From Candidatus Pacebacteria bacterium GW2011_GWA1_46_10 (GTDB lineage: Bacteria; Patescibacteriota; Microgenomatia; UBA1400; PJMF01), in the NCBI GenBank assembly GCA_001002135.1, contig LCLP01000003.1, forward strand, positions 1-38,413: 38,413 nt of DNA, in the 5' to 3' direction. Each line of letters begins with the position of its first letter. The first letter of the stretch is position 1. Below the pieces are notes generated by a model. The model searched no databases. It saw nothing but the letters and a program-made list of their open reading frames with translations, and had not been told where the DNA came from. The position numbers and the translations under genes were made by a program. Below are positions 1-15,494 of the stretch, piece by piece.

Positions 1-213
1 ATAAAACCGGGCATGATTCTTGATATAGCTTTCAACCTCCCTGATGCTAATAATCTCTCTTTGAAAGGTGCAGCTCATCATGGCAGAGCGGTCGAACAAC
101 TTTATACTCAAGAGGAGATTAAAAAGTTTGTTAGGACCAAAAATCCAAACAGTTTAAACAACAAAATTATCATGCCACTGAGTATAGCGCGCATCTGGAT
201 TTTCGAAGAATGA
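1..213 (+). CDS. C-terminal fragment of an unidentified protein, cut by the window edge
   Basis: The reading frame is open from base 1 (ata aaa ccg ggc before the first ATG at 13), so the 66-aa ORF is more likely the tail of a longer protein than a complete gene. No signal peptide, membrane segment or recognisable motif is visible. Its TGA overlaps the ATG of the next gene (ATGA at 210-213), which implies translational coupling and one transcript with the secreted-protein genes downstream. I do not recognise the family. Confidence 0.5.
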   Translation: MKPGMILDIAFNLPDANNLSLKGAAHHGRAVEQLYTQEEIKKFVRTKNPNSLNNKIIMPLSIARIWIFEE

Positions 214-1988
214 GAAAAAACCTACTGTTAAAAACCATTATTTTCGCCTTGAGTTTATTGGGAGCATTTTTGCTTACCCAAACCTTGCCCTCAACTGGTG
301 CTCTGGCCGACGAGCGATGTGGCGATGGTTATGTTTGTTGGGATGCTTTCGGCAGTCAAAATAAAACGGTTGTAGCGACCTCTTGCATTGCTAGCGAATA
401 CGGTTATTGTACTGTTCTTGGTACAACTGAGGGTATTTGTTATTGTAGTGGCAGCCCAAATTGTTCTTGTTCCATAACAAACTGGATTTGCGATGGTCAA
501 CCAGTCACTGGCGAAAGTCTGTGTTGGTGTCTAGATGACAGTACACCACCGACAAACTTTGGTTCTTGTGATGCCGGCAATACCTGCACCTATGGCACTC
601 CTGTACCTGATTATAGTAATTTGCAATGCAGTGGCGTGCCAGAAACTCTGACTGGTGGTTGTTGTTACGCAGATGGTACCACTCCCACACCTAGCCCAAC
701 TGATGGCGGTGGCGGTGGCGGCTTTCCTACTCCTACTCCAACTCCCATTTATATAATCGGTGGCAACATTTATGAAGATCCTAACGCCATTCCTGGTGGC
801 TTGGGAGGAACTGATAATCTCTGTACCGGCAATACTTCAACACCTATCAGTAACAGCAACGCCACTGTCAATATCACTCGTCCAGGAGAAAGTAAGACTC
901 AACAAGTCACCGGACCCACTTATAACATTACTGTCAGCACCAATAACTCAGACTATACGGTGGCCTTTGACCTTCCATTTCCGCCAGCAGACCCAGACAA
1001 CCCCTGGCAATGTGCCTGCAACGCCGACCCTTCTGATCCGTATCGCTGCTTGTATACCAACCAACAACCCAATCAGGGTTTGAGAAACTTTTTTATTAAA
1101 CGTGGTGCCTCCACCAGTGCTTGGTTCCAAACTCTTGGTGGTAATTCTTGGGCCTCCGGCAACATTGAGTCCCTCATCCCCGCCACTAGTTGTACACCGC
1201 CCACCTGCACACCCGCTTTAATTGCCAGCAACCCCAATGGAGATCTTGATACTGCCGGATTCCCACTCAGCAACACCGGGGCCATCGTCACCAGCCTCAC
1301 TGGTGGAGTATACATTCATGAAGCCGATAGTAGAGGGAACGCACTCCAAGCGAAGGCGTTGGGGGTAGTGGTGCCAATAGAAAACTACGATTATTTTTAC
1401 GACAAATTTGGCGATCAAGCCCAAATTCTACCCAACGCCGGGAAACCAATTGTGGGCAGTGAGCTGGCCATCTATCAATACACTGGTGACTTGACACTGA
1501 CCGAAAATAATCCTTGGAATCTGACTAACACCGAAAAGATTATTGTTTTTGTCGATGGTAACCTAACCATTGATGACACCGTGGCCGGTGAAAACCGCAT
1601 CACCACCGTGGCGACCGGCGGCGATGCTTTTTTGATGTTCATCGTCAGCGGCGACATCACCATTACCAGCCGCGTCGGCTACGCCGATATTTATACCAAC
1701 CCCGCTGCTCCCAACGTGGCCAATGTCGAGGGCGTGTTTATCGCTGATGGCTTACTGACCGTAGCTGGAGTGGCCGGCGCCACCGATCTTAAGTTTATTG
1801 GGGCCGGCACCTTTGTCGGCTGGAGTGGGGTAGACCTACAGCGTAACTTTGATCCCGGTGGCAGCCCAGAACTGAATAACAACGCCGCCACTGAAGTCTT
1901 CATCTTCCGGCCGGACTTAATCGTCAATGCCCCGCGCGCCGTGAAATCCGCTCAGATGACCTGGCGGGAAATCGAGCCCCGATTCTAG
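210..1988 (+). CDS. Large secreted Cys-rich protein, paralogue A, beside type IV pilin genes
   Basis: 592 aa. The N-terminus is a signal peptide (MRKNLLLKT, a hydrophobic stretch, then ALADE). Residues about 35-165 are Cys-rich (16 Cys by eye), suggesting a disulphide-stabilised exported module. A low-complexity linker of Thr-Pro and Gly runs (GGGGGG, TPTPTP) follows. From about residue 180 to the end, the protein is clearly homologous to the next gene. Shared landmarks are GGLGGTD, WQCACNA, NFF(I/V)KR, IIVF(V/I)(D/E)GNL, GAGTFVGW/AGTFVGW and VFRPDL. The repeated GNL/GDI segments suggest a beta-rich, possibly solenoid-like domain. Its position next to prepilin genes points to a pilus-associated surface protein or adhesin, but that is inference; no enzyme motif is seen. 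Confidence 0.8.
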   Translation: MRKNLLLKTIIFALSLLGAFLLTQTLPSTGALADERCGDGYVCWDAFGSQNKTVVATSCIASEYGYCTVLGTTEGICYCSGSPNCSCSITNWICDGQPVTGESLCWCLDDSTPPTNFGSCDAGNTCTYGTPVPDYSNLQCSGVPETLTGGCCYADGTTPTPSPTDGGGGGGFPTPTPTPIYIIGGNIYEDPNAIPGGLGGTDNLCTGNTSTPISNSNATVNITRPGESKTQQVTGPTYNITVSTNNSDYTVAFDLPFPPADPDNPWQCACNADPSDPYRCLYTNQQPNQGLRNFFIKRGASTSAWFQTLGGNSWASGNIESLIPATSCTPPTCTPALIASNPNGDLDTAGFPLSNTGAIVTSLTGGVYIHEADSRGNALQAKALGVVVPIENYDYFYDKFGDQAQILPNAGKPIVGSELAIYQYTGDLTLTENNPWNLTNTEKIIVFVDGNLTIDDTVAGENRITTVATGGDAFLMFIVSGDITITSRVGYADIYTNPAAPNVANVEGVFIADGLLTVAGVAGATDLKFIGAGTFVGWSGVDLQRNFDPGGSPELNNNAATEVFIFRPDLIVNAPRAVKSAQMTWREIEPRF

Positions 1989-2003
1989 TACACTGAGAAG
2001 AGT

Positions 2004-3317
2004 GTGAAAAAACTCCTGTTATTCATTGGTCTATTGTTTTTTTTGTCTTTTCAACCAGTTTCCGCCAGTTTCGGCGGCGGCATTTACGATGACGCCAACG
2101 CGCAGCCAGAGGGACTCGGTGGCACAGATAGTCGGTGTATCGGTTCCACCGCTAACGAAGTCAGTGGTGTTGGTTTCCAAGTCAGAGCGATGAGAGAAGG
2201 GGAGGACAACCTCGGCACAATCATCAGCAATAGCTATTCTGTAGCCACCTACACGGGTCAGAGTGACTACACCGTCATCATGAACCTGCCGTACCCGCCG
2301 CCAGACCCAGCCAATGCTTGGCAGTGCGCCTGTAACGCCAACCCGCTGGATTCTTATCAGTGTGTCTATACCAACCAAGACCCGGATACCAGCGGCTCTT
2401 TAAATTTCTTTGTCAAGCGCGCCAACGTGCAAAATAACGCCTGGTGGCAAGTCTTTGGCGGTAGTGTTTTTTCCCGTTACAATATTCAAAGTCTAATCCC
2501 GGTTAACTTCAACAATTCCCCAGGTTACTGCAACACTACGCCCGGCTGCTTACCGGCGCTCATCGGCACTGACACCGCTGATGATATCGACAGTCCAGGT
2601 TTTGCTTTCACCCTGAACGGCACCATTTACACCCACGAAACCGGCACCAGTTTTATCCATGACCCTGATCAACGCAGTAATGCCATTCAGGGTTTTGCCG
2701 CCGGCACCAACTTACCCACCGAGGACTATAATTTTTTTGCCAAAAAAATGCTGCAAGACGCCGTTGTACTGCCCAGCTCCCAAAAACCCACCCCAACCAG
2801 TCAACCAGCCATTTACTCTCACGCCGGCAACTTGACGATCGGCACCGCCAATCAATGGCATGTCGCCAACAGCGAACAAATCATTGTTTTCATCGAGGGA
2901 AACCTGGTGGTCGATGATCTTCCTGGAGCAACCAATCGCTTAATTACCGTCGAGCCGGGTGGCACTGGCTTTTTGGCTTTCATCGTTCAAGGTAACGTGA
3001 TCATTACTCCTAACGTTGGCTACCCTGACCTTAACACCAGTCCCACCGATCCTAACTCACCGCTGATCGAAGGAGTATTTGTGGCTGACGGCATTATCCA
3101 AGTGCAAAGCTATCAAACCACCCCCGATTATAAATTGATTGTCGCCGGCACTTTTGTTGGCTGGACCGGCATTAATCTCCAACGCAGCTTTGCCAATCAG
3201 GACGACAACTCACTCAACAACATTGTCCCGGCTGAAAGTTTTGTTTTCCGGCCGGATCTGCTCGTCAATACCCCCACCGTGATGAAAGCCGCCCATTTTA
3301 ATATTCGAGAAATCTAG
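2004..3317 (+). CDS. Large secreted protein, paralogue B, tandem copy without the Cys-rich extension
   Basis: 437 aa, GTG start with GAGAAG just upstream, 15 bp after paralogue A. A signal peptide (MKKLLLFIGLLFFLSF...VSAS) leads straight into the domain shared with the C-terminal 400 residues of paralogue A, starting at GGGIYDDANAQPEGLGGTD. Conserved Cys positions (WQCACNA...C) and the C-terminal motifs (IIVFIEGNL, AGTFVGW, FVFRPDL) align along the whole length. The pair therefore arose by tandem duplication, followed by gain or loss of the Cys-rich/linker N-terminus. A prepilin gene lies downstream in the same direction. A role at the pilus tip or cell surface is inferred from context only. 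Confidence 0.8.
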   Translation: MKKLLLFIGLLFFLSFQPVSASFGGGIYDDANAQPEGLGGTDSRCIGSTANEVSGVGFQVRAMREGEDNLGTIISNSYSVATYTGQSDYTVIMNLPYPPPDPANAWQCACNANPLDSYQCVYTNQDPDTSGSLNFFVKRANVQNNAWWQVFGGSVFSRYNIQSLIPVNFNNSPGYCNTTPGCLPALIGTDTADDIDSPGFAFTLNGTIYTHETGTSFIHDPDQRSNAIQGFAAGTNLPTEDYNFFAKKMLQDAVVLPSSQKPTPTSQPAIYSHAGNLTIGTANQWHVANSEQIIVFIEGNLVVDDLPGATNRLITVEPGGTGFLAFIVQGNVIITPNVGYPDLNTSPTDPNSPLIEGVFVADGIIQVQSYQTTPDYKLIVAGTFVGWTGINLQRSFANQDDNSLNNIVPAESFVFRPDLLVNTPTVMKAAHFNIREI

Positions 3318-3352: not shown

Positions 3353-3411
3353 AGTTTATAGTTAATGACAAGGAATAAATTCTATACACTATTCACTATG
3401 AACTATAAACT
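3353..3411 (+). repeat. Inverted heptad-type repeat bracketing a prepilin start
   Basis: AGTTTATAGTT (3353-3363) and AACTATAAACT (3401-3411) are perfect 11-bp inverted repeats. They flank the preferred start codon of the downstream prepilin (ATG 3398). The words match the degenerate heptads found elsewhere in this locus. In mRNA the arms could pair and place the start codon next to the stem. Confidence 0.6.
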
Positions 3412-3943
3412 CAATGCCGGCTTCACCCTGATTGAACTGTTGGTCGTGGCCACCTTGACAGTGCTCATCATGCTCACTGTGACGTCACTTTTCATGACCT
3501 TTCTTATTACTTCTCAAAAAGCCAGTATTGAACAGCGCGTCAAAAGCGAAGGGGAAGACGCCTTGGCTAAAATCGAGTTCATCTTACGTAACTCCAGAAA
3601 ACTCGTCCCAGGGCTTGATGGTGCTACTACTTGTAATAACGATCCCAATGATCCGATGAATAATCTAGCGGTCGAGGGTTTGGACGGGTACATCACTACT
3701 TTGCAATCATACCCGATTGAGAACCCCAAAATTGCCTCACACTCCGGCGCCATCAACGATTATTACTATCTCACCTCTGATGAAACCACTCTTGCCAACC
3801 TGGAATTCACCTGTTTGACTGGAGCAGAAGATTCTTACTATGTCGGTGTTTCATTTGACTTAAAAATCGGGACCGGCGAAAGCAGCGACCGTGAAACAGC
3901 CGTTGAAACATTTCAAACCGGGATTACTTTGAGAAATAATTAG
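3398..3943 (+). CDS. Prepilin-like minor pilin (PilW/GspJ-like)
   Basis: 181 aa from ATG 3398. The ORF track starts at 3365, but the internal start gives a normal short leader: MNYKLNAG, then the class III prepilin motif FTLIELLVV with Glu at +5 and about 20 hydrophobic residues. PilD would cleave after Gly and methylate the Phe. The globular domain is about 130 residues and contains paired Cys. A GspJ/PilW-type role fits the extended helix and length, but subtype is uncertain. It is the last plus-strand gene of the cluster, and its stop lies 3 bp from the stop of the convergent minus-strand prepilin. The leader codons lie in heptad-repeat sequence and there is no clear Shine-Dalgarno. Confidence 0.82.
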   Translation: MNYKLNAGFTLIELLVVATLTVLIMLTVTSLFMTFLITSQKASIEQRVKSEGEDALAKIEFILRNSRKLVPGLDGATTCNNDPNDPMNNLAVEGLDGYITTLQSYPIENPKIASHSGAINDYYYLTSDETTLANLEFTCLTGAEDSYYVGVSFDLKIGTGESSDRETAVETFQTGITLRNN

Positions 3944-3946
3944 TGC

Positions 3947-4420
3947 TCATTCCCACCGGCGAAAAACTTGGAGTAAAGTAACATCACGCTCGCCATTACC
4001 AGAGTTCCAACGCATCGTCACCGACACTTGAATCAGTGGATTATTAGGGTCACTCTCATCGATCGTCACCTCAACCTCCCGATAAAAATCGACGCCAGCA
4101 ATCACTATGCCCTGCTCCTCCGTACAAGCTCCCAAAGTAAAACCTGACTTGGGTGCCGGGAGCGTTTGTAAACAGTAAACTCCACCATTACTCAAACTTC
4201 CAAAAAACACATCCCACCCTAAAAGCGTTCTTTCACGCCGAAAAACCTCTATGGCTTCCTGAGCACGCTTTACTGCCTGCGAGCGGTATTCTGATTCGGC
4301 GTTCGTTTTTAATGACAAGGTTAGTCCCGAAACGATCGCGGTCAACACCAATGCCATGACGCCGGTGGCGACCACAATTTCAATCAGACTCGACCCCTTT
4401 TGACCCAGACTATTAACCAT
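3947..4420 (-). CDS. Prepilin-like minor pilin (PilV/GspI-like)
   Basis: 157 aa from ATG 4420; the track start at 4453 is a GTG. The chosen start gives a leader MVNSLGQKG followed by SSLIEIVVATGVMALVLTAIVSG, a prepilin helix with Glu at +5. Ser replaces the usual Phe/Met at +1. The phrase EIVVA..VMALVLTA resembles PilV/GspI-type minor pseudopilins, which prime fibre assembly. The remainder is a small globular domain with two Cys. It is the last gene of the minus-strand pilus operon. The codons upstream of and within the leader are built from the degenerate heptads, so no normal Shine-Dalgarno can be assigned and the start remains uncertain. Confidence 0.8.
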   Translation of the reverse strand: MVNSLGQKGSSLIEIVVATGVMALVLTAIVSGLTLSLKTNAESEYRSQAVKRAQEAIEVFRRERTLLGWDVFFGSLSNGGVYCLQTLPAPKSGFTLGACTEEQGIVIAGVDFYREVEVTIDESDPNNPLIQVSVTMRWNSGNGERDVTLLQVFRRWE

Positions 4421-4485
4421 TAACTTTAAACTTTTCACTATTACCTTTTTCACTATTAACTATTAACTTTTCACTATTAACCGTT
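4411..4485. repeat. Degenerate 7-bp repeat array between prepilin genes
   Basis: Plus-strand units read aaccatt, aacttta, aactttt, cactatt, cactatt, aactatt, aactttt, cactatt, aaccgtt, with small indels. The array fills the spacer between the 4486 and 3947 prepilin genes and overlaps the first codons of the latter. Confidence 0.75.
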
Positions 4486-4977
4486 TCATTGCCAAGCCCC
4501 TTCACTCACCCGACCCTCACGGTACAGTGTGAACAAATAGTTGTTTTCATTGTTGGCCACCACAATATCTTGACTCGCCGCGCCACCAGGCAAAGTCACC
4601 CCAGCATTGAGAACTTGAAAAGTGGTGTCAATGTTCGGACTGACTGTCACATGAGCCGGCAACTGAAATGTTTGAGCAGTATTAGCGGTCCCAGCACCAC
4701 AAACCGCTTGTAGAGATACCTCCGTGGCCGTACCAACCAAATATGTTTGTACCCGATAACCGTTCAGTTGCTCACAGCCACCCAAATCACCCGCCGCCGT
4801 CTTCGTTTGGGCCAGTTGAAAATAGGTCTTTAGCTCATCGACAGCGTTAATCACAGCTCGTTTTTCAGTAAAATTACTGAAAGCTATTAACCCATTCCCC
4901 AATAGCACGATTGAAATAACCACCACCACCAACAGCTCAATTAAGGTAAAACCAGTAGAAGAAATAGCCTTTCTCAT
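4486..4977 (-). CDS. Prepilin-like minor pilin (GspH/FimT-like)
   Basis: 163 aa from ATG 4977; the track begins at a TTG eight codons earlier. The leader MRKAISSTG is followed by FTLIELLVVVVISIVLLGNGLIAF, a class III signal with Glu at +5. The next segment (NFTEKRAVINAVDELKTYFQLAQTKTAAG) resembles the helix-to-head region of GspH/FimT pseudopilins. The head contains two Cys and the C-terminus reads LFTLYREGRVS, also common in that family. It lies between two heptad-repeat spacers in the minus-strand prepilin series. Assignment as a prepilin is firm; the subtype is inferred. Confidence 0.82.
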   Translation of the reverse strand: MRKAISSTGFTLIELLVVVVISIVLLGNGLIAFSNFTEKRAVINAVDELKTYFQLAQTKTAAGDLGGCEQLNGYRVQTYLVGTATEVSLQAVCGAGTANTAQTFQLPAHVTVSPNIDTTFQVLNAGVTLPGGAASQDIVVANNENNYLFTLYREGRVSEGAWQ

Positions 4978-4987
4978 CCATCCATTA

Positions 4988-5062
4988 CTCTTAACTATCA
5001 ACTATAAACTATTCACTATAAACTTTTTTACTTCAAACTATTCACTATAAACTTTTTACTTT
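4988..5062. repeat. Degenerate 7-bp repeat array
   Basis: Plus-strand units include aactatc, aactata, aactatt, cactata, aactttt, then again aactatt, cactata, aactttt. A stretch of about 20 bp is repeated almost exactly within the array. It fills the spacer between the 5073 and 4486 prepilin genes. Confidence 0.75.
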
Positions 5063-5072
5063 CACTTTTTCC

Positions 5073-5483
5073 TCAAGGGTTGCTCACTGTATACGGCGTA
5101 TCATCCGGTTCAAGGAGCGCTTCCAGAGTAAAACCCGTGGCCTCAGTCGTGCCACAGTTACCAACTCCCGCCGGCGTATACGTATAGAGTGGAATACTCT
5201 CAGAGCCCTGTGGATCGTAGGGAGTCTCATTAAGGTAACTGCTGATCGTAGTCAACATCGCCGTGTAGGTCGTATCGGGCGGGTAGCACCCGTTATCACT
5301 GCGATACAGCACTAGAGCCTGACGAACCGTCTGTAAGTCAGTTTTTCGCTTGGCGTTGCGGCTGCTTTGACTGGCACTGCGATAACTGATCAAGGCGATG
5401 GTACTCAGAACAATCATGATCGTTGCCACCACCAGTAGTTCGATCATAGTAAACCCTGGAGATTTTTTTAGTTTAAAGTTCAT
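5073..5483 (-). CDS. Type IV prepilin (GspG/PilA-like, short)
   Basis: 136 aa from ATG 5483. The track start at 5516 is a TTG that would overlap the upstream gene; the internal ATG gives a compact leader, MNFKLKKSPG, before FTMIELLVVATIMIVLSTIALISYRSA. The helix continues into SSRNAKRKTDLQTVRQALVLYRSDNGCYPP, the typical GspG/PilA transition with a conserved aromatic-Pro segment. Two Cys in the head could form a disulphide. It begins 11 bp after the preceding prepilin stop. It could be a major or minor subunit; its GspG-like head and its pairing with the 5495 gene suggest pseudopilin-style subunits. Confidence 0.85.
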   Translation of the reverse strand: MNFKLKKSPGFTMIELLVVATIMIVLSTIALISYRSASQSSRNAKRKTDLQTVRQALVLYRSDNGCYPPDTTYTAMLTTISSYLNETPYDPQGSESIPLYTYTPAGVGNCGTTEATGFTLEALLEPDDTPYTVSNP

Positions 5484-5494
5484 AGCTCGTTTGC

Positions 5495-5929
5495 TCACTG
5501 TAAATTCGTCAAACAATAATAGTCACCGCCCGAGTTATAACTGCACGTACCGGGCGTCACCGGCAGATCGGCGTTACCCGTACCACTTTCCAAATAAGCA
5601 CAGACACAATACCCGCTGACCGTGCACCCATTGGCAGTGTTGTAGACATAATCACCGCTGTTTCTGGGATCGACCGGCAAACCACCGGGCATGAGTGAGC
5701 CAGAGCCGCTATTATAATCAGCCATGGTACTACAGGCCTCATACGTGCTATTTTCCGCTCGATACTGCTCAAAGGCATCCTGCATCGCTTTGATATCCGA
5801 CCGCCGCCGAGAATCACGGCCAGTTTTTTGGGCCGTCGTAAAAGCCACTGTGCCGATCGAGACCAAAATCCCAATGATCGAAATCACAACCAACAACTCC
5901 AATAAACTAAACCCGAGATATTTCTTCAT
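5495..5929 (-). CDS. Type IV prepilin (GspG/PilA-like) with Cys-rich head
   Basis: 144 aa from ATG 5929. The track start at 5959 would overlap the upstream gene, whereas AAGGAGAAAGAC directly before ATG 5929 is a strong Shine-Dalgarno. The leader is only MKKYLG, followed by FSLLELLVVISIIGILVSIGTVAF with Glu at +5. The helix runs into TAQKTGRDSRRRSDIKAMQDAFEQYRAENSTY, a GspG/PilA signature. The head carries several Cys, suggesting disulphides. Together with the 5073 gene it forms a tandem pair of related prepilins. Confidence 0.87.
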   Translation of the reverse strand: MKKYLGFSLLELLVVISIIGILVSIGTVAFTTAQKTGRDSRRRSDIKAMQDAFEQYRAENSTYEACSTMADYNSGSGSLMPGGLPVDPRNSGDYVYNTANGCTVSGYCVCAYLESGTGNADLPVTPGTCSYNSGGDYYCLTNLQ

Positions 5930-5942
5930 GTCTTTCTCCTTG

Positions 5943-6974
5943 TTACTCTGGTACCACACGCAGCTCCAGCTTCGATGACTCAGTCAAGGAACTGACTGTC
6001 CCAGCCGCTGTCACAGCCTGAACAGTCACCTGATAAATACACTCCGTCCGAGTACAAGTATAGGTGTGGCTGACCGCCCCATGCAAGTCAGAAAGCTCAG
6101 TCACTTGACCGTCACCAAAATTAACGATTACCTTTTCTAGTTTATCGCCGCCGCCATTCCTCCAAAAAAGAGCTCGTACTAACCAGCCGAAACGCTCTGT
6201 CAGTGAAAGATTAGCCCGCTCTGCTGCGGTCAGACTATCAGCAAAAGCATCGCCACGCACATCGTTAAAGGTATAAAAAAACTCTACTGGCTGACCAGCC
6301 TGTACGATCACCGTTCTCGTCCCAACAACCGGTGAGGGATCGCTCTCAAAGTTGAGGACGACTGGCTTTTCCACACAGGAGGTATAACACGAGCGCGGAC
6401 AATCAAGTGCTACCGGCTGCCTCGGCTCCACACCCGACTGAGCTGTCTCACTACAACAGCGAAAACCATATCCCTCACAAAGAGTAGGTGGGCCTTGATC
6501 CACCACTAACTCGGGTTCACCGTTATACTTCAATACCGTCCGAATAAAAATATCCTCTTCATACACCGCGCCAGTTCGCCCCAACACCGAAAGCGTCAAC
6601 CCACTTAAGTTTTCCCCTTGAATTAGGCCTGATTGTCCCACCCCTTTTTCTACCAGTCGCGGCAGAGTTGCCGTCCTGATAGGAGAACGGAGCGACTGAT
6701 TAGTCTGACAGACTATCTCCAACACATAATCTCTTTGTGAAGTAAACCGCAACTGAGCGCGCGTCAGTGAAACACCGTCAGGCGGGACGCCGCCAAACTC
6801 TCGACACGATTGACTAAAGCTCGGGTCGGCCGACAACGAGCTTAGTTCTCGGGCATCAGCGCGTACTTGGCTAACGGCCATGGTTAACAGTATCTCCCGA
6901 GTGATCAAACCAGCGAGCACTGCTAAAACAATCAGCGTCACGACCGTCGTAAAAATAATTCGTAGTGTTCTCAT
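5943..6974 (-). CDS. Membrane-anchored protein with C-terminal PKD-like domain, in the pilus operon
   Basis: 343 aa. One N-terminal membrane segment (about residues 7-30, IIFTTVVTLIVLAVLAGLI) anchors a long extracytoplasmic part. No prepilin Gly/Glu signature precedes this helix, so it is not a normal PilD substrate. A central Cys-rich stretch (residues about 165-205, including a CC pair and PRSCYTSC) is followed by a region with the PKD hallmark VNFGDGQVTELS...VSHTYTC near the C-terminus. PKD folds usually mediate binding between surface proteins. It starts 52 bp after pilD and is followed 13 bp later by a prepilin, so it is very likely co-transcribed. A pilus-associated surface role is inferred from context. 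Confidence 0.7.
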   Translation of the reverse strand: MRTLRIIFTTVVTLIVLAVLAGLITREILLTMAVSQVRADARELSSLSADPSFSQSCREFGGVPPDGVSLTRAQLRFTSQRDYVLEIVCQTNQSLRSPIRTATLPRLVEKGVGQSGLIQGENLSGLTLSVLGRTGAVYEEDIFIRTVLKYNGEPELVVDQGPPTLCEGYGFRCCSETAQSGVEPRQPVALDCPRSCYTSCVEKPVVLNFESDPSPVVGTRTVIVQAGQPVEFFYTFNDVRGDAFADSLTAAERANLSLTERFGWLVRALFWRNGGGDKLEKVIVNFGDGQVTELSDLHGAVSHTYTCTRTECIYQVTVQAVTAAGTVSSLTESSKLELRVVPE

Positions 6975-7002: not shown

Positions 7003-7028
7003 TAACCATTCACTATCAACTATTCTTT
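7003..7028. repeat. Short degenerate heptad array
   Basis: Plus-strand units aaccatt, cactatc, aactatt and ctttatc lie in the spacer between pilD and the PKD gene. They match the words of the arrays at 4411 and 4988. Confidence 0.55.
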
Positions 7029-7845
7029 ATCCTCCAATCATCCTGACATAGCCCGCCCACAAATCAAACCCCCAGACCAAACTTAGTGCTGTTCCTAACA
7101 ACAAAAATGGTCCGAAGGGAATTGGCTGACGAAACTGCTTTTTACCAATGATCACTAAACCACCGCCAACTACTGCACCGATCAAAAACGCCAAAAAAAC
7201 ACCAACCAAGATTCGCTGCCAGCTGCCCAAGATTAACCCCAGCGGTACGGCCAACTGAACATCTCCAAAGCCAAAACCTTTACCCTTAGTAATCCACCAC
7301 AAACTCAGAAAAAAACCGGTTAAACCCAGTGTCCAAAGTAGTGAAACACCAAAATCAGCCAGTTGCAGCTCGTGGTTGACCAGCAACAACCCTCGGTAGA
7401 GGAGGGTAGCGACCGTCAAGGTGATCAGCGTCCAACGAGGAATAATCAAATACTTGAGGTCACTGACCAAAATCACCACAAATACACTGCCAACCAGTAA
7501 CCAGAAAAGCGGTTGAACAGATTGTAATGGAGCGCTGGTCAAACGAAAGAACAAAAAACCAGCCACATACCACCATAAAAACAAAAAACCGGTCAACAGC
7601 TCGACTAAGGGATGAGCAACATCAATCTTCTGCCCACAATGAGCACAGCGACCACGCAAAAAAAGATACGAGAGAATCGGCACATTTTCAGACCAAGCGA
7701 TAGCTCGACCACAGTGTTCACAGCTGGAACGACCCTTAATCCAGTCCTTGCCATGATGCGTTCGATACACTAAGACATTCAGGAAACTGCCCACCGCCGC
7801 TCCTAAACCAAAAACTAAGGCTCCAATCAGCCAGAAAACCGACAT
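7027..7845 (-). CDS. pilD: Prepilin peptidase / N-methyltransferase PilD (A24 family)
   Basis: 272 aa polytopic membrane protein that cleaves prepilin leaders after Gly and methylates the new N-terminus. The N-terminal domain carries GSFLNVLVYR and two zinc CxxC pairs (C42/C45 in CEHC, C67/C70 in CAHC), as in bifunctional PilD. The catalytic aspartates are D129 (VSDLKYLIIP) and D195 (in GFGFGDVQLA, the GxGD motif). Length is normal for the family. It would process the six prepilins in this window. A TATACT box lies 6 bp before the ATG with no Shine-Dalgarno, suggesting a promoter of its own and a leaderless transcript, although it also lies in the operon 15 bp after the pilin gene. Confidence 0.95.
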   Translation of the reverse strand: MSVFWLIGALVFGLGAAVGSFLNVLVYRTHHGKDWIKGRSSCEHCGRAIAWSENVPILSYLFLRGRCAHCGQKIDVAHPLVELLTGFLFLWWYVAGFLFFRLTSAPLQSVQPLFWLLVGSVFVVILVSDLKYLIIPRWTLITLTVATLLYRGLLLVNHELQLADFGVSLLWTLGLTGFFLSLWWITKGKGFGFGDVQLAVPLGLILGSWQRILVGVFLAFLIGAVVGGGLVIIGKKQFRQPIPFGPFLLLGTALSLVWGFDLWAGYVRMIGG

Positions 7846-7860
7846 ACAGTCAGTATACCG

Positions 7861-8493
7861 CTACGGGATACAGACACAGTTACCGCTTGGCCCGCACTCG
7901 GCGGTGTTACCAATGGCGTCAGCCGCCGGGTAGTCGGCCGGATAGTTATCAAAGGTGCCATCTCCGTCCGGGTCCAAGCGTTCATCCACTTCCTGCACAA
8001 AAGCTTGAGAGCGCGGCTGGAAACAAGCGTAGGTGCTACTGCCTTGCTCACCAGTGTTATAAACATATAAATAGTTGTACGACGCTTCCGATACTCGGTC
8101 CAAAAAGCTCTGTTTGAGTTCGTCAGCGCCAGTACAGCCAGCCGTAGTGGCAGTGCCCAGTTTTTCACCCACTTTACAAACCCCAGCACTGTCAGTAAAA
8201 CTGCTTGAATCTTCAAAGTGAGTCCAGCTTAAAGCCACATTAGCGGTGTCCGAAGCACCAGTCTGCCATGGATAATACCCATTAAAGGCATAATAGCGGT
8301 CAATGGCACTGATCAGTTGCTCAGCATCAGACCGGCTACCAGTATCCCGACCTCTATTGATCTGCTCAATCGGGTTGATCGCCGCCAACACAGCAATCGC
8401 CAAAATACCCAAGATAGCGATGACGATCAAAAGCTCAATCATCGTAAAGCCGGCTTGGTGCCGGAGGTTTTTCAAGTAGGACAGGAATTTCAT
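7861..8493 (-). CDS. Type IV prepilin, candidate main pilin
   Basis: 210 aa from ATG 8493; the track start at 8511 is a TTG, while GGGAGAAAAGG precedes this ATG. The leader MKFLSYLKNLRHQAG is followed by FTMIELLIVIAILGILAIAVLAAINPIEQINRGRDTGSRSDAEQL. The AVLAAINPIEQINRARD-type phrase is typical of main pilins in CPR and some Gram-positive loci. The head is about 160 residues with several Cys and ends in CGPSGNCVC. It sits between pilC and pilD, the usual place for the major subunit, and is the longest of the minus-strand prepilins. Calling it the major pilin is inference. Confidence 0.87.
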   Translation of the reverse strand: MKFLSYLKNLRHQAGFTMIELLIVIAILGILAIAVLAAINPIEQINRGRDTGSRSDAEQLISAIDRYYAFNGYYPWQTGASDTANVALSWTHFEDSSSFTDSAGVCKVGEKLGTATTAGCTGADELKQSFLDRVSEASYNYLYVYNTGEQGSSTYACFQPRSQAFVQEVDERLDPDGDGTFDNYPADYPAADAIGNTAECGPSGNCVCIP

Positions 8494-8578
8494 AGGCCTT
8501 TTCTCCCTCAAGGGTTTCTACTGGTTACTATCAGCGTACACTAAATCAAGTATGCAAGGCAAGCAGGGGAATAAAAGT

Positions 8579-9781
8579 TTAAAATTGGCTAGTCAAACTG
8601 TAGATCGGCATGATGATGGCAATCACCATGGCGCCGACACCAAGACCCAAGACCACCATGATCAGTGGCTCCATAGCGGCTGTCAGGTTTTTCACCGCCT
8701 GTTCACTTTCTGATTCAAAGTATTTAGAGAGTTTTAAAAGTACTTCGTCCAATTTGCCTGTTTCCTCACCGACCGCCAACATTTGATGGAGTATTCCGGG
8801 AAACAAGTCATAGACCGACATCGCTCGAGAAAGCGGCACGCCTTTTTCCACTTTCTGGGCTACTTCACTCATCGCGTCCCGGTATAAAATACTGCCCATG
8901 GCCGCCGAGACTATATTCAACGAACTCAAGAGCGGGACCCCAGAACTTAAAAGCAAGGACAGTGTTCTGGCAAAGTTCGTCAAAATAATTTTTTGCCGCA
9001 GATTACCGATGATCGGCACTTTCAATAACCACTGATCAATCTTGTGTTGGCCAAGTGAGGTCTTGTACCAATTGCGCAAGGCCGCCACCCCGCCAACCGT
9101 CAATAAAATAAAGGCCCACCAAAAACGAGTCAGAAAATTAGCGATGGAAATGAGAATCAGGGTGGGTAAAGGCAGCTCGGCCCCAAAGTCCTTGTACATA
9201 TCTGTGAGTTTGGGGATCACAAACACCATCATCACAAAGCCAACAATCACCATCGCAATCAAGACAATAACTGGATAAATCATGGCACCCTTCGTTTTAC
9301 CCCGAAACTCTTTGTCTTTCTCCAAGTTCTCGGCCAATTTATCCATCACTTTATCCAACACCCCACCTACCTCGCCGGCCTTGACTAACTGGATATAAAT
9401 TCGATCGAAAACATCAGGTTGTCTCTCCAAAGCTTTGGCAAAAGCGTTGCCGCTTTCAATTTCACGCAAGAGGTTACTCACCACTTCGGCCATTGCCGGG
9501 TTGTTTTGATCACGCAAAATACTCAAGCCAGTGGCCAACGGCAAACCGGCACTGACCATCGTGGCCAACTGGCGGGTGAAGTTCACTAGGTCATCATGCC
9601 TCACTTTATTGAGAAATCCAGTCATGAACGACAGGCCGGTGTCACTCTGAGCTATGACATCAATTACCAACAGCCCGCGATTCATCAGCACGCCAGCTGC
9701 CTGCTGACGGTTTTGCGCTTCCACCTTGCCCTTGACTGTTTCACCGTGCGCGTTTTTGGCCGTATAAGAAAAAATCGACAT
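8579..9781 (-). CDS. pilC: Type IV pilus inner-membrane platform protein PilC
   Basis: 400 aa, standard for the PilC/GspF family. Two T2SSF domains are visible: about residues 70-190, beginning FTRQLATMVSAGLPLATGLSIL, and 270-395, beginning FARTLSLLLSSGVPLLSSLNIV. Each precedes hydrophobic helices, and the C-terminus ends with a long membrane segment (EPLIMVVLGLGVGAMVIAIIMPIYSL). The N-terminus (FSYTAKNAHGETVKGKVEA) is the usual PilC opening. It is the rotor or platform on which PilB and PilT act. It starts 15 bp after pilT and is followed by the pilin gene. Confidence 0.95.
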   Translation of the reverse strand: MSIFSYTAKNAHGETVKGKVEAQNRQQAAGVLMNRGLLVIDVIAQSDTGLSFMTGFLNKVRHDDLVNFTRQLATMVSAGLPLATGLSILRDQNNPAMAEVVSNLLREIESGNAFAKALERQPDVFDRIYIQLVKAGEVGGVLDKVMDKLAENLEKDKEFRGKTKGAMIYPVIVLIAMVIVGFVMMVFVIPKLTDMYKDFGAELPLPTLILISIANFLTRFWWAFILLTVGGVAALRNWYKTSLGQHKIDQWLLKVPIIGNLRQKIILTNFARTLSLLLSSGVPLLSSLNIVSAAMGSILYRDAMSEVAQKVEKGVPLSRAMSVYDLFPGILHQMLAVGEETGKLDEVLLKLSKYFESESEQAVKNLTAAMEPLIMVVLGLGVGAMVIAIIMPIYSLTSQF

Positions 9782-9796
9782 ACTGTGCCTAATTGG

Positions 9797-10900
9797 TTAC
9801 GGTTGTCCCTCACCCAACAGCCGATTTAACTCCGTGGGGCGGAAGGCCGTCATTATCGCTCTCTCTTTAGAAATGACACCCTGTTGGACTAACCTTAATA
9901 AGTCATTTTCGATGAGCGTCATGCCATCAGCGGTGGAGGTTTGAATAACATTATCAATCTGGTGAGTCTTGTTCTCGCGAATGAGATTGCGAATGGCTGA
10001 GTTGGCAATCATTAACTCAAAAACTGCTTGCATTCCGCCACTACTCCTTGGCACCAGGCGTTGAGAAGCCACCACTCGTAAAGTGGCGGCCAACTGCATC
10101 CTGACCTGATCTTGCTGGTGAGCCGGGAAAACGTCGATGATTCGATCTACCGTCTGGGCAGCGGTGGCCGTGTGCAAAGTCGCCAATACTAAATGACCAG
10201 TCTCAGCGATCGTAATCGCTGAAGCAATCGTCTCAAAGTCACGCATCTCGCCAATTAATACCACATCTGGATCCTCACGCAGAGCCGAGCGCAACGCCAA
10301 GTCCCAAGAGTGAGTGTCACGATTCACTTCTCGCTGGGAAATAATGCTTTTATCGGGCACATAGACAAACTCGATTGGGTCTTCAACCGTGATAATATGC
10401 TCGCTTCTGGTGTGGTTAATTTCATCAATTACGGCCGCCAGGGTGGTTGACTTGCCCTCACCCGTCGGACCAGTGACTAAAATAAGTCCTTGTGAAAAAT
10501 GACTTAATTGATGAAAGAGTGCGGGCAGCCCCAGCTCATCAACAGTGCGAATTTTGGTTGGGATCAGCCGCAGTGCGGCGGCTAACTGACCTTTTTCATA
10601 ATAGACATTCACCCTGAATCGAGCTTGCTCATTATATTGATAGCCAAAGTCGAGTTCTTTATTGGCGCGCAAGTATTCCAACTGCTCGGGTGACAAAAGT
10701 GAGCCAATCAGTTGTTCAGCCAACTCTTGGGTGAGCGGCACGGTGTTTTCCGCTGGTGCCAATTGACCGTTTACCCGCAGATGAGGTGGAGAACCAACTA
10801 AAAAATGAAGATCTGACCCATCACGTTGGATTAAAGTATCCAACAGTAATTGGATGTTGAGAGGCTGGTTGGTGAGTTGAGGTTGAATGGGCTCTGACAT
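9797..10900 (-). CDS. pilT: Type IV pilus retraction ATPase PilT
   Basis: 367 aa from the second ATG (10900), which has AAGGG at good distance; the track uses 10906. PilT hexamers drive pilus retraction and twitching. Visible motifs are the N-terminal PAS-like domain (DLHFLVGSPPHLRVNG), Walker A GPTGEGKSTT, the Asp box (ITVEDPIEF), Walker B (VVLIGEMRD) and the His box (TGHLVLATLHTATA). The fifth P-loop residue is Glu rather than the common Ser. It starts 11 bp after pilB and precedes pilC by 15 bp. PilT-type rather than PilB-type assignment rests on length, the lack of an N1 domain and the QRLVPR phrase. Confidence 0.94.
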   Translation of the reverse strand: MSEPIQPQLTNQPLNIQLLLDTLIQRDGSDLHFLVGSPPHLRVNGQLAPAENTVPLTQELAEQLIGSLLSPEQLEYLRANKELDFGYQYNEQARFRVNVYYEKGQLAAALRLIPTKIRTVDELGLPALFHQLSHFSQGLILVTGPTGEGKSTTLAAVIDEINHTRSEHIITVEDPIEFVYVPDKSIISQREVNRDTHSWDLALRSALREDPDVVLIGEMRDFETIASAITIAETGHLVLATLHTATAAQTVDRIIDVFPAHQQDQVRMQLAATLRVVASQRLVPRSSGGMQAVFELMIANSAIRNLIRENKTHQIDNVIQTSTADGMTLIENDLLRLVQQGVISKERAIMTAFRPTELNRLLGEGQP

Positions 10901-10911
10901 TATCATCCCTT

Positions 10912-12684
10912 TTATTTAGACTCTGCTACTCGCAGTACTTCTTCAATAGTGGTAACTCCCTCCAAAGCCTTGATATAACCATCCTGCTTCATCAGGAGCA
11001 TCCCGTTATCAACGGCCGCTTTCTCCAGCTCAGCGTCAGACTTGCCTTCGATAATCAGGTGACTGACTTGCTCACTAACTGGCAAGACCTCAAAAATGCC
11101 GATGCGGCCAAGGTAGTCAGGCTCGGTCGTTGGCCGGGTGGCCGCCGGCCGGTACAACACCAATTTATTAGGATCGGTCTTACTTTTTTGGCACCACTGG
11201 GTATAGCGTTCACCCAACACCTGCTTCACGTCCTCTACCACCGCCGGGTCAGGAGTGTATTGTTCCTTGTAAGCAGGATTGATCTGCCGTAGCACCCGTT
11301 GAGCCATAATCAGCGTCACGGTGGAGGAGAGTAGAAACGCCTCTGCCCCCATATCTAGTAACCGCGGGATCGCCCCGGCAGCTGAGTTCGTGTGCAAAGT
11401 GGATAACACCAAATGGCCCGTTAATGAAGCCTGGATCGCTAACTCGGCCGTCTCGGCATCACGAATTTCTCCCACCATGATAATGTTAGGGTCCTGACGC
11501 AGGAAAGAGCGCAGCGCGGTGGCAAAGGTCAAACCAGCTTGAGGATTCACCTGGACTTGGCTGATACCAGGAATTTGGTACTCCACTGGATCCTCAATCG
11601 TCATGATGTTGACTTTAGGAGTATTTAGTTGATGTAGCACTGAGTACAAAGTCGTCGTTTTACCAGAGCCAGTGGGACCAGTGACCAGAATAATGCCGCG
11701 AGGGACTTTAATTAAATCTTGTAAATGTTTGAGCGCCAATCCCGTCAAACCTAACTCTTCCAAAGAGGGGACTGCGGCATTTTTCTGCAGGAGCCGCATC
11801 ACCACTTTTTCACCGTGAATCGTCGGTAGGGTGGAAATACGCAGGTCAATTTCCTTCCCATCAGCGATGTAATTAAAACGGCCGTCCTGCGGGATCCGTC
11901 GTTCGTCGATTTTGAGGTTAGCCAAGATCTTAATGCGTGAAACTACGGCATCATGAACGCTCTGCGGCAGAACCAGCCGCTCAGTCAAGATCCCATCAAT
12001 CCGATAACGCACCTTCGTCTTGCCAATCTGAGGTTCAATATGAATGTCCGAAGCTCGCGCTTTGACCGCAAAATCCAAGACCGTCTCTACGATGCGATTG
12101 ATCGGCGCGTCTCTCACTACTTCAGCGCGCGAGGGAGTATCAGCCTTGACAATTTTTTCAGCCCGCAAGTCATTTTGTTCCAAAGCCTGGGTCACTTCAG
12201 AAGAAAGATCTTGAGAGAATTGTTCCGTGAGCGCTTTTTCCAGCTCTGAGGGGACGGCCGCGGCCACCTCCAGACTAAGACCGGTTTTCTGCTTCAAAAA
12301 ATTAACCGCCGCCAAGTCCAGTGGGTCGCTCATGGCCACTTTTAGCACCCGGTTTTCTTTGTCATACGCGTACGGCAACACTTTGTAGCGGCGGGCCACC
12401 CCTTCGCCAACTAGATTTAAGGCCTCAGGCGAAGCGCTCATTTCCGTCACGCGGACTAAGGAGAGATTGTTAAAAGTGGCTTTGGCTTGGGCAATCTCCA
12501 GCTCTGAGGCCAACTTTTTCCCCAGTAACAACTCTTCAAAAGTCTTACCTGTAATCAACTGTTCACTTTTGATTTGATTGAGCTGCTCCTCAGTCAATTT
12601 TTTATCACGCACCAGAATATCGAGAAAATGCTGGGGCGTAACAGAAACAGGGGCTGCTGGTGAAACCTGGGCAGGCTCGGTCAT
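10912..12684 (-). CDS. pilB: Type IV pilus extension ATPase PilB
   Basis: 590 aa. An N-terminal MshEN/T2SSE-N region (about 15-170) has FEELLLGKKLASELEIAQAKA and LPYAYDKENRVLKVAMSDPLDLAA. The AAA-like domain carries Walker A GPTGSGKTTTLYS, the Asp box (MTIEDPVEYQ), Walker B (IIMVGEIRDAETAELA) and the His box (TGHLVLSTLHTNSA). The tetracysteine zinc module that most PilB/GspE proteins carry after this point is missing: the region reads INPAYKEQYTP...QWCQKSKTDPNK with one Cys. It is the first gene of the minus-strand pilus operon. Divergent from the clamp-loader gene, it shares a 29-bp spacer with overlapping TATA-like boxes. Confidence 0.95.
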   Translation of the reverse strand: MTEPAQVSPAAPVSVTPQHFLDILVRDKKLTEEQLNQIKSEQLITGKTFEELLLGKKLASELEIAQAKATFNNLSLVRVTEMSASPEALNLVGEGVARRYKVLPYAYDKENRVLKVAMSDPLDLAAVNFLKQKTGLSLEVAAAVPSELEKALTEQFSQDLSSEVTQALEQNDLRAEKIVKADTPSRAEVVRDAPINRIVETVLDFAVKARASDIHIEPQIGKTKVRYRIDGILTERLVLPQSVHDAVVSRIKILANLKIDERRIPQDGRFNYIADGKEIDLRISTLPTIHGEKVVMRLLQKNAAVPSLEELGLTGLALKHLQDLIKVPRGIILVTGPTGSGKTTTLYSVLHQLNTPKVNIMTIEDPVEYQIPGISQVQVNPQAGLTFATALRSFLRQDPNIIMVGEIRDAETAELAIQASLTGHLVLSTLHTNSAAGAIPRLLDMGAEAFLLSSTVTLIMAQRVLRQINPAYKEQYTPDPAVVEDVKQVLGERYTQWCQKSKTDPNKLVLYRPAATRPTTEPDYLGRIGIFEVLPVSEQVSHLIIEGKSDAELEKAAVDNGMLLMKQDGYIKALEGVTTIEEVLRVAESK

Positions 12685-13430: not shown

Positions 13431-15494
<2,064 letters not shown>

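Follow-up and report, generated by a model that had tools for sequence, protein, structure and literature searches.

PilY1 is a non-pilin tip adhesin that works with minor pilins; its C-terminus, a beta-propeller, is conserved, and its N-terminal part is variable. The modular pilins PilB and PilC of Streptococcus sanguinis carry an adhesive module grafted onto the pilin (PMC8179133, PMC9934059). In Thermus thermophilus, ComZ has been proposed to be the tip pilin of the competence pilus and has a beta-solenoid whose closest relative, according to its authors, is an ice-binding protein; it was argued to stand at the pilus tip beside the pilin encoded by the adjacent gene (PMC6561018). The lollipop pilins PilX1 and PilX2 of TM7x (Saccharibacteria) have jelly-roll or propeller domains, and PilX2, which carries a beta-propeller, is a proposed pilus adhesin; upon its deletion, the share of host cells bound fell from ~10.6% to 4.6% (PMC12206443). 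In the literature we covered, the Saccharibacteria are the only group for which a pilus receptor has been proposed experimentally (PMC12206443). Pili are nearly universal in Patescibacteria. In the open-access collection that we searched, we found no paper on cysteine-rich pilus-linked adhesins in Patescibacteria, nor on DUF7305.

The window, i.e., the whole stretch of DNA analysed here, covers bases 1-38413 of contig C3 (164 kb) in a genome of 0.92 Mb (9 contigs, 98.8% complete). The named near relatives of this genome are Candidatus Pacebacteria and other Microgenomates-type MAGs, and the source bacterium is tiny and probably host-dependent. Two large proteins are encoded in tandem at the start of the window: A (592 aa, 210-1988, + strand) and B (437 aa, 2004-3317, + strand). 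A preliminary description had identified both open reading frames and regarded them as paralogues sharing about 400 residues, which agrees with the 46% identity we find over ~415 residues. A consists of a signal peptide (~1-34), a 16-Cys domain (37-152), a Thr-Pro/Gly linker (~157-180), a beta-sandwich (~180-300), and a beta-solenoid module (~301-592), whereas B has a signal peptide (~1-21), a beta-sandwich (~20-142), and the module (~143-437). The module corresponds to positions 1111-1985 in A (+ strand; delimited by our profile A3, the structure model, and the start of a Chloroflexota fragment) and 2430-3314 in B (+ strand; profile A3 and the structure model of B). The earlier account of the two termini also holds: residues 37-152 of A contain exactly 16 Cys and are followed by the TPTPSPTDGGGGGGFPTPTPTP linker and the B-like part, while B has 6 Cys in total and lacks both the Cys-rich domain and the linker; the GNL/GDI repeats correspond to GDLTL/GNLTI/GDITI segments in both C-termini. 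Both proteins have predicted Sec-type signal peptides that lack the prepilin motif. The front of A is probably disulphide-stapled, and the genome encodes VKOR (disulphide formation). Searches of A and B against Pfam, NCBIfam, and PHROGs gave nothing meaningful and no PDB sequence was matched, in line with the initial impression that no known family fits.

The genes around A and B make up a type IV pilus operon that is complete, encoding prepilins, PilD, PilC, PilT, and PilB. Downstream of B lies the prepilin pp1 (3365-3943, + strand; N_methyl PF07963, E 4.7e-5), a weakly ComGF/GspJ-like minor pilin whose orthologues match ComGF (up to 5.8e-6) and, weakly, GspJ. On the other strand, family matches identify the minor prepilins pp2 (ComGE/GspI-like), pp3 (GspH-like), pp4, and pp5 (GspG-like) at 3947-5959, and translations and family matches identify pilD, the prepilin pp6 (a candidate major pilin), pilC, pilT, and pilB at 7027-12684. 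Between these two groups, and also on the - strand, is 'cysP' (5943-6974), a membrane-anchored Cys-containing protein of 343 aa with an orthologue in nearly every pilus operon examined; its Cys residues include a cluster (CEGYGFRCCSETAQ...CPRSCYTSCVEK), its C-terminal part may be PKD-like, and it gives no family match in Pfam and NCBIfam. As noticed previously, pp1 runs rightwards against the leftward pilin operon, and the two meet at 3943/3947. A and B are separated by 15 nt, and B and the prepilin by 47 nt, or by ~80 nt with the ATG at 3398 as the start of the prepilin. No terminator-like site occurs between these genes; the only one in this region falls within B, and shuffled sequences have more on average. 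This makes plausible, from the sequence, the single transcript with the prepilin that the preliminary description had asserted.

The first base of the window is also the end of a contig, and so C and D, which belong to the same cassette, were outside the view of the preliminary description. The last genes on contig C2 of this genome are pilX, pilM, pilN, pilO, five reversed housekeeping genes, C, and the start of D. In relatives where the region is unbroken, the order is pilM-N-O, housekeeping genes, C and D, A-like gene(s), pp1, and the convergent pilus operon. From these data, A and B are most likely the third and fourth genes of a unit C-D-A-B-pp1 within the pilus island, where the join between C2 and C3 is drawn from the synteny of relatives. 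The open frame at 1-212 (+ strand), which precedes A and ends in IARIWIFEE before the stop, is probably the 3' end of D, whose start is at the end of C2; this assignment uses contig order alone, and the 70-residue fragment matches none of the other C and D proteins significantly. In the genome of the window, C and D share an exact patch of 99 bp at the contig break (L144:14343-14441 and 14797-14895), and those of L036 share one of 126 bp (96% identical). Elsewhere, C and D have diverged, and no such near-identical patch was seen in 24 other C/D pairs. The patches may reflect gene conversion between C and D.

The preliminary description had suggested comparing the shared domain with PilY1/PilX-type and beta-solenoid folds. 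The AlphaFold2 model of B (28 sequences) shows a beta-sandwich at residues 20-142 and a confident beta-rich C-terminal part, with pLDDT values of mostly 90-98 between residues 241 and ~390; residues 166-234 are poorly modelled. The module of A modelled alone reached a pTM of 0.79, and the part common to both proteins for which a solenoid is modelled is the C-terminal ~290 residues. The best PDB fold match of the module is the DUF3494 ice-binding solenoid 6bg8 (E 0.025, prob 0.97), followed by ComZ (6qvi, E 0.35). No PDB match passes E 0.001, the viral fold library gave no match, and the matches with E below 1 include no lyase or hydrolase. Profile-profile alignment with three PilX-like proteins by hhalign was weak (prob 7.7). 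The A-like profile matches L157, a DUF7305 prepilin encoded beside pilM and above the Pfam cut-off, with an E-value of 2.6e-5. On the basis of the fold matches to 6bg8 and ComZ and of the match to L157, we place the module within a broad DUF7305/ComZ/DUF3494-like group of solenoids, as a remote relation and not as a member of any of these families. A and B have no match to DUF7305 (PF23981) at E 1, and the best A-like protein scores 26.3 bits against a gathering score of 27; the weak DUF7305 matches of homologues are located inside their modules. Pfam matches to DUF3494 are absent, leaving a likeness of fold.

These results set A and B apart from each of the described systems, with which they nevertheless share several traits. 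Like ComZ, they are pilus-linked, have a DUF3494-like solenoid, and are encoded beside a minor pilin. However, the solenoid of ComZ is inserted in a pilin-like domain, whereas A and B have a cleaved signal peptide, no prepilin motif or pilin part, and a C-terminal solenoid, and the fold match between the two is not significant. The DUF7305 proteins include PilX-type prepilins near pilM in Patescibacteria, and the A-like profile matches one of them, but no A-like protein reaches the cut-off of that family. PilY1 resembles A and B in being a large secreted protein encoded with minor pilins and having variable N-terminal and conserved C-terminal parts; it differs in its beta-propeller, and A and B match no PilY1 family in Pfam or NCBIfam. 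PilX1 and PilX2 of TM7x are also pilus-linked, with large C-terminal domains and no recognised PilD signal, but include no solenoid. The adhesive modules of S. sanguinis PilB and PilC likewise belong to a monoderm type IV pilus, but are part of the pilin, whereas A and B are separate secreted subunits. A and B carry no sortase signal either, and LPxTG is absent from the last 60 residues in 45 out of 45 homologues.

Sequence comparisons indicate that A and B are members of a family, widespread and so far without a name, in which the front varies and the solenoid back is conserved. The conserved part is the C-terminal ~290-330 residues, with the signature WWQxxGG...GNLTI...GTFVGW...YRPDF, present in A and B, and the motifs WWQxxGG...IxSxIP, GDLTI, GNLTI, GGFLAFIVxGNIT, EGVxxADG, GTFVGWxGVxLxR, and NNxPxExFxYRPDF. 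Profile A3 scores A at 1.6e-111 and B at 1.9e-104, both having been rows of the profile. The module is present in 39 out of 52 relatives, in 71 out of 286 genomes of Patescibacteria (including most sampled genomes of the window's class), and rarely in Chloroflexota, and the idea that these proteins are specific to this lineage must be abandoned. The same applies to the Cys-rich segment, previously seen as special to A: it is the norm of the family, since the first 200 residues contain 10 or more Cys in 32 out of 45 homologues. A-like proteins reach 1400 residues, 39 out of 45 have a hydrophobic N-terminus without the prepilin motif (as found by a simple script), and some have matches to TSP1, F5/8C, Ig-like, and CBM domains in their N-termini, or to GBS Bsp-like domains. 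Identity in the Cys domain is 24-44% among close relatives; between A and its three closest relatives it is 28-44%, with 13-77 gapped columns, to be compared with 62-71% for the module, 72-78% for pp1, and 77-79% for PilC in the same genomes. The usual cassette comprises a lipoprotein gene (C), a gene of ~200 aa with one TM (D), and the A-like gene; C and D have a predicted membrane anchor in most cases.

We then quantified the association with pilus genes, defining linkage as a module match within 17 kb of pilC and comparing it with the chance expectation (Poisson). Linkage was found in 15 out of 38 genomes of the window's order versus 2.5 expected (7e-8), and in 19 out of 41 genomes (14 families) of other classes versus 2.3 expected (6e-12), counts that are not fully independent because the genomes are related and kinship was left uncorrected. 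When all pilus genes in the neighbourhood are counted, the cassette is in a pilus island in 18 of the 35 relatives examined, and in 19 of the 38 genomes of the order, 35 of which were covered. The pair does not, however, always lie near pilus genes, as the preliminary description had it: the neighbourhood examined around the cassette lacks them in 16 out of 38 genomes of the order, linkage is found in 0 out of 15 genomes of the sister orders, and the Chloroflexota copies are unlinked. The survey of co-occurrence with pilC that had been proposed is uninformative (Fisher P 0.08): pilC is nearly universal, being present in 51 out of 52 relatives and 269 out of 286 genomes of the phylum, and thus it is gene position that discriminates. 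In the window's family, the cassette is between the pilX-M-N-O block and the minor pilins, and the conserved neighbour of the A-like gene is pp1, usually directly 3' and on the same strand. In other classes, the A-like gene is often beside pilM, and C and D are not recognisable beside every linked copy. Local arrangements differ among the window's family, G051, and G039, which suggests that the linkage arose more than once.

A replacement of PilX by A was ruled out: the island that holds A also has pilX, and pilX is the direct neighbour of pp1 in several genomes whose locus lacks A. Second pilus loci of related genomes encode a DUF7305-like PilX of ~450-460 aa (L121:7277-8665, L122:5606-6958, and L123:8372-9763). 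A 24,281-aa 'open frame' (G016:C2, around L131:3-10235) starts as a run of X, i.e., it is masked DNA and not a gene.

The position of the cassette inside the type IV pilus cluster in many lineages makes A and B good candidates for its cell-contacting parts. We tentatively propose, at a little short of even confidence, that they are secreted surface receptors or adhesins of the pilus system with the solenoid docked at the tip. Each would be exported through its predicted cleavable signal peptide, and the solenoid would dock at the tip on the neighbouring minor pilin pp1, by analogy with ComZ and PilY1. The lipoprotein C and the membrane protein D could assist export or, alternatively, keep the protein at the membrane, either until it is loaded on the pilus or in place of such loading. 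The variable front would contact another cell or a surface, and retraction would then pull the cell in; A and B, whose binding fronts differ, would serve as tips either as alternatives or as a pair. The fold and the secretion are predictions, while the tip location, the ligand, and the roles of C and D are what we infer from them and from the locus. The adhesin role put forward initially is partly borne out by the signal peptides, by modular N-termini that evolve faster than the module and PilC, by linkage above chance in two separate parts of the phylum, and by the resemblance of the module to the ComZ solenoid and DUF7305 prepilins. It is weakened by fold matches short of significance, by the weak PilX-like comparison, by the persistence of a canonical PilX-like gene, and by the C-D-A cassette persisting in sister orders and Chloroflexota where linkage is absent. 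The unlinked and Chloroflexota copies favour a serious rival, which we consider possible if rather less than probable: C and the bitopic D would anchor a secreted A-like adhesin or receptor at the membrane independently of pili, and the pilus island of the window's family would be a secondary clustering of attachment genes. The C-D-A order occurs with and without nearby pilus genes, roughly one in two genomes of the order has the cassette unlinked, as have all 15 of the sister orders, and the membrane anchors predicted for most C and D proteins fit such a complex. Yet it accounts poorly for a strong linkage that recurs with different local arrangements, for the place of pp1 directly after the A-like gene in the operon, and for the linked copies of other classes in which C and D are unrecognisable.

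Two other readings concern the solenoid itself. It could work as that of ComZ does, in DNA uptake, making A and B receptors of DNA instead of partner cells: ComZ binds DNA (PMC6561018), and uptake is expected of these nucleotide-poor bacteria (PMC6744442). We regard this as unlikely, because fast-evolving N-termini of adhesion type are ill-suited to an invariant ligand, and because ComZ is itself a pilin, which A and B are not, and its match to the module is weak. The top fold matches being DUF3494 ice-binding proteins, the module might also belong to a beta-helix protein that takes no part in recognition and instead has a structural role in the envelope, binds ice, or degrades polysaccharides. 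This is very improbable given the lack of a DUF3494 Pfam match and of lyases or hydrolases among the fold matches with E below 1, and it would leave the linkage with pilus genes unexplained. If A-like proteins are instead tip receptors of the pilus, as we favour, their fixed anchoring module and variable heads would make it possible to list candidate proteins for host recognition in Microgenomates and other classes, the head domains would offer a way to predict partners, and these classes would have in this family a solenoid counterpart of the PilX2 of Saccharibacteria.

The module tree has two separate clades in which A-like genes form tandem pairs (G000/G001/G010 and G011/G017/G028), and the proximal copies form two groups separated by well-supported branches. 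In both clades, the copy adjacent to pp1 is Cys-poor at the N-terminus (2-6 Cys in 200 residues) and the distal copy is Cys-rich (15-21 Cys) where its N-terminus is complete. The Cys-rich/Cys-poor pair thus apparently arose twice, by convergent evolution, even if gene conversion of modules within older pairs may be an alternative origin. In the second clade, the two copies of L038, L042, and L052 are separated by an additional gene (340-510 aa) with no recognised function.

Outside Patescibacteria, the A-like profile matches 4 out of 151 Chloroflexota genomes. Two of these keep the order lipoprotein, one-TM protein, and A-like protein, in one case within a single contig of 4.4 Mb. The preliminary description had argued that homologues found routinely in genomes lacking pilus genes would speak against a pilus role, and these rare genomes are the only ones of this kind: no pilus genes were found beside their A-like genes, and they have no match to the PilC query, although the T2SSF family finds tandem genes of ~320 aa of Tad type in them. 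In the module tree, the copies of three MAGs labelled Chloroflexi fall at three different places inside Patescibacteria, and may result from transfer, or from contig chimeras or mis-binning. It is conceivable, but doubtful, that the family consists of phylum-wide non-pilin solenoid tip receptors with interchangeable heads, that a Cys-rich/Cys-poor pair evolved independently in at least two lineages, and that versions of these receptors were passed to Chloroflexota, possibly hosts, on conjugative-type elements. The A-like genes or fragments of the three MAGs are at L083:10005-10881, L085:116-2287, and L100:2-655. The L083 fragment begins at the module boundary, is 82% identical to A of the window, and has as neighbours an integrase, Replic_Relax, and a coupling protein of conjugative type; the latter two are also encoded in L085, within a low-GC stretch of ~18 kb at the end of the contig.
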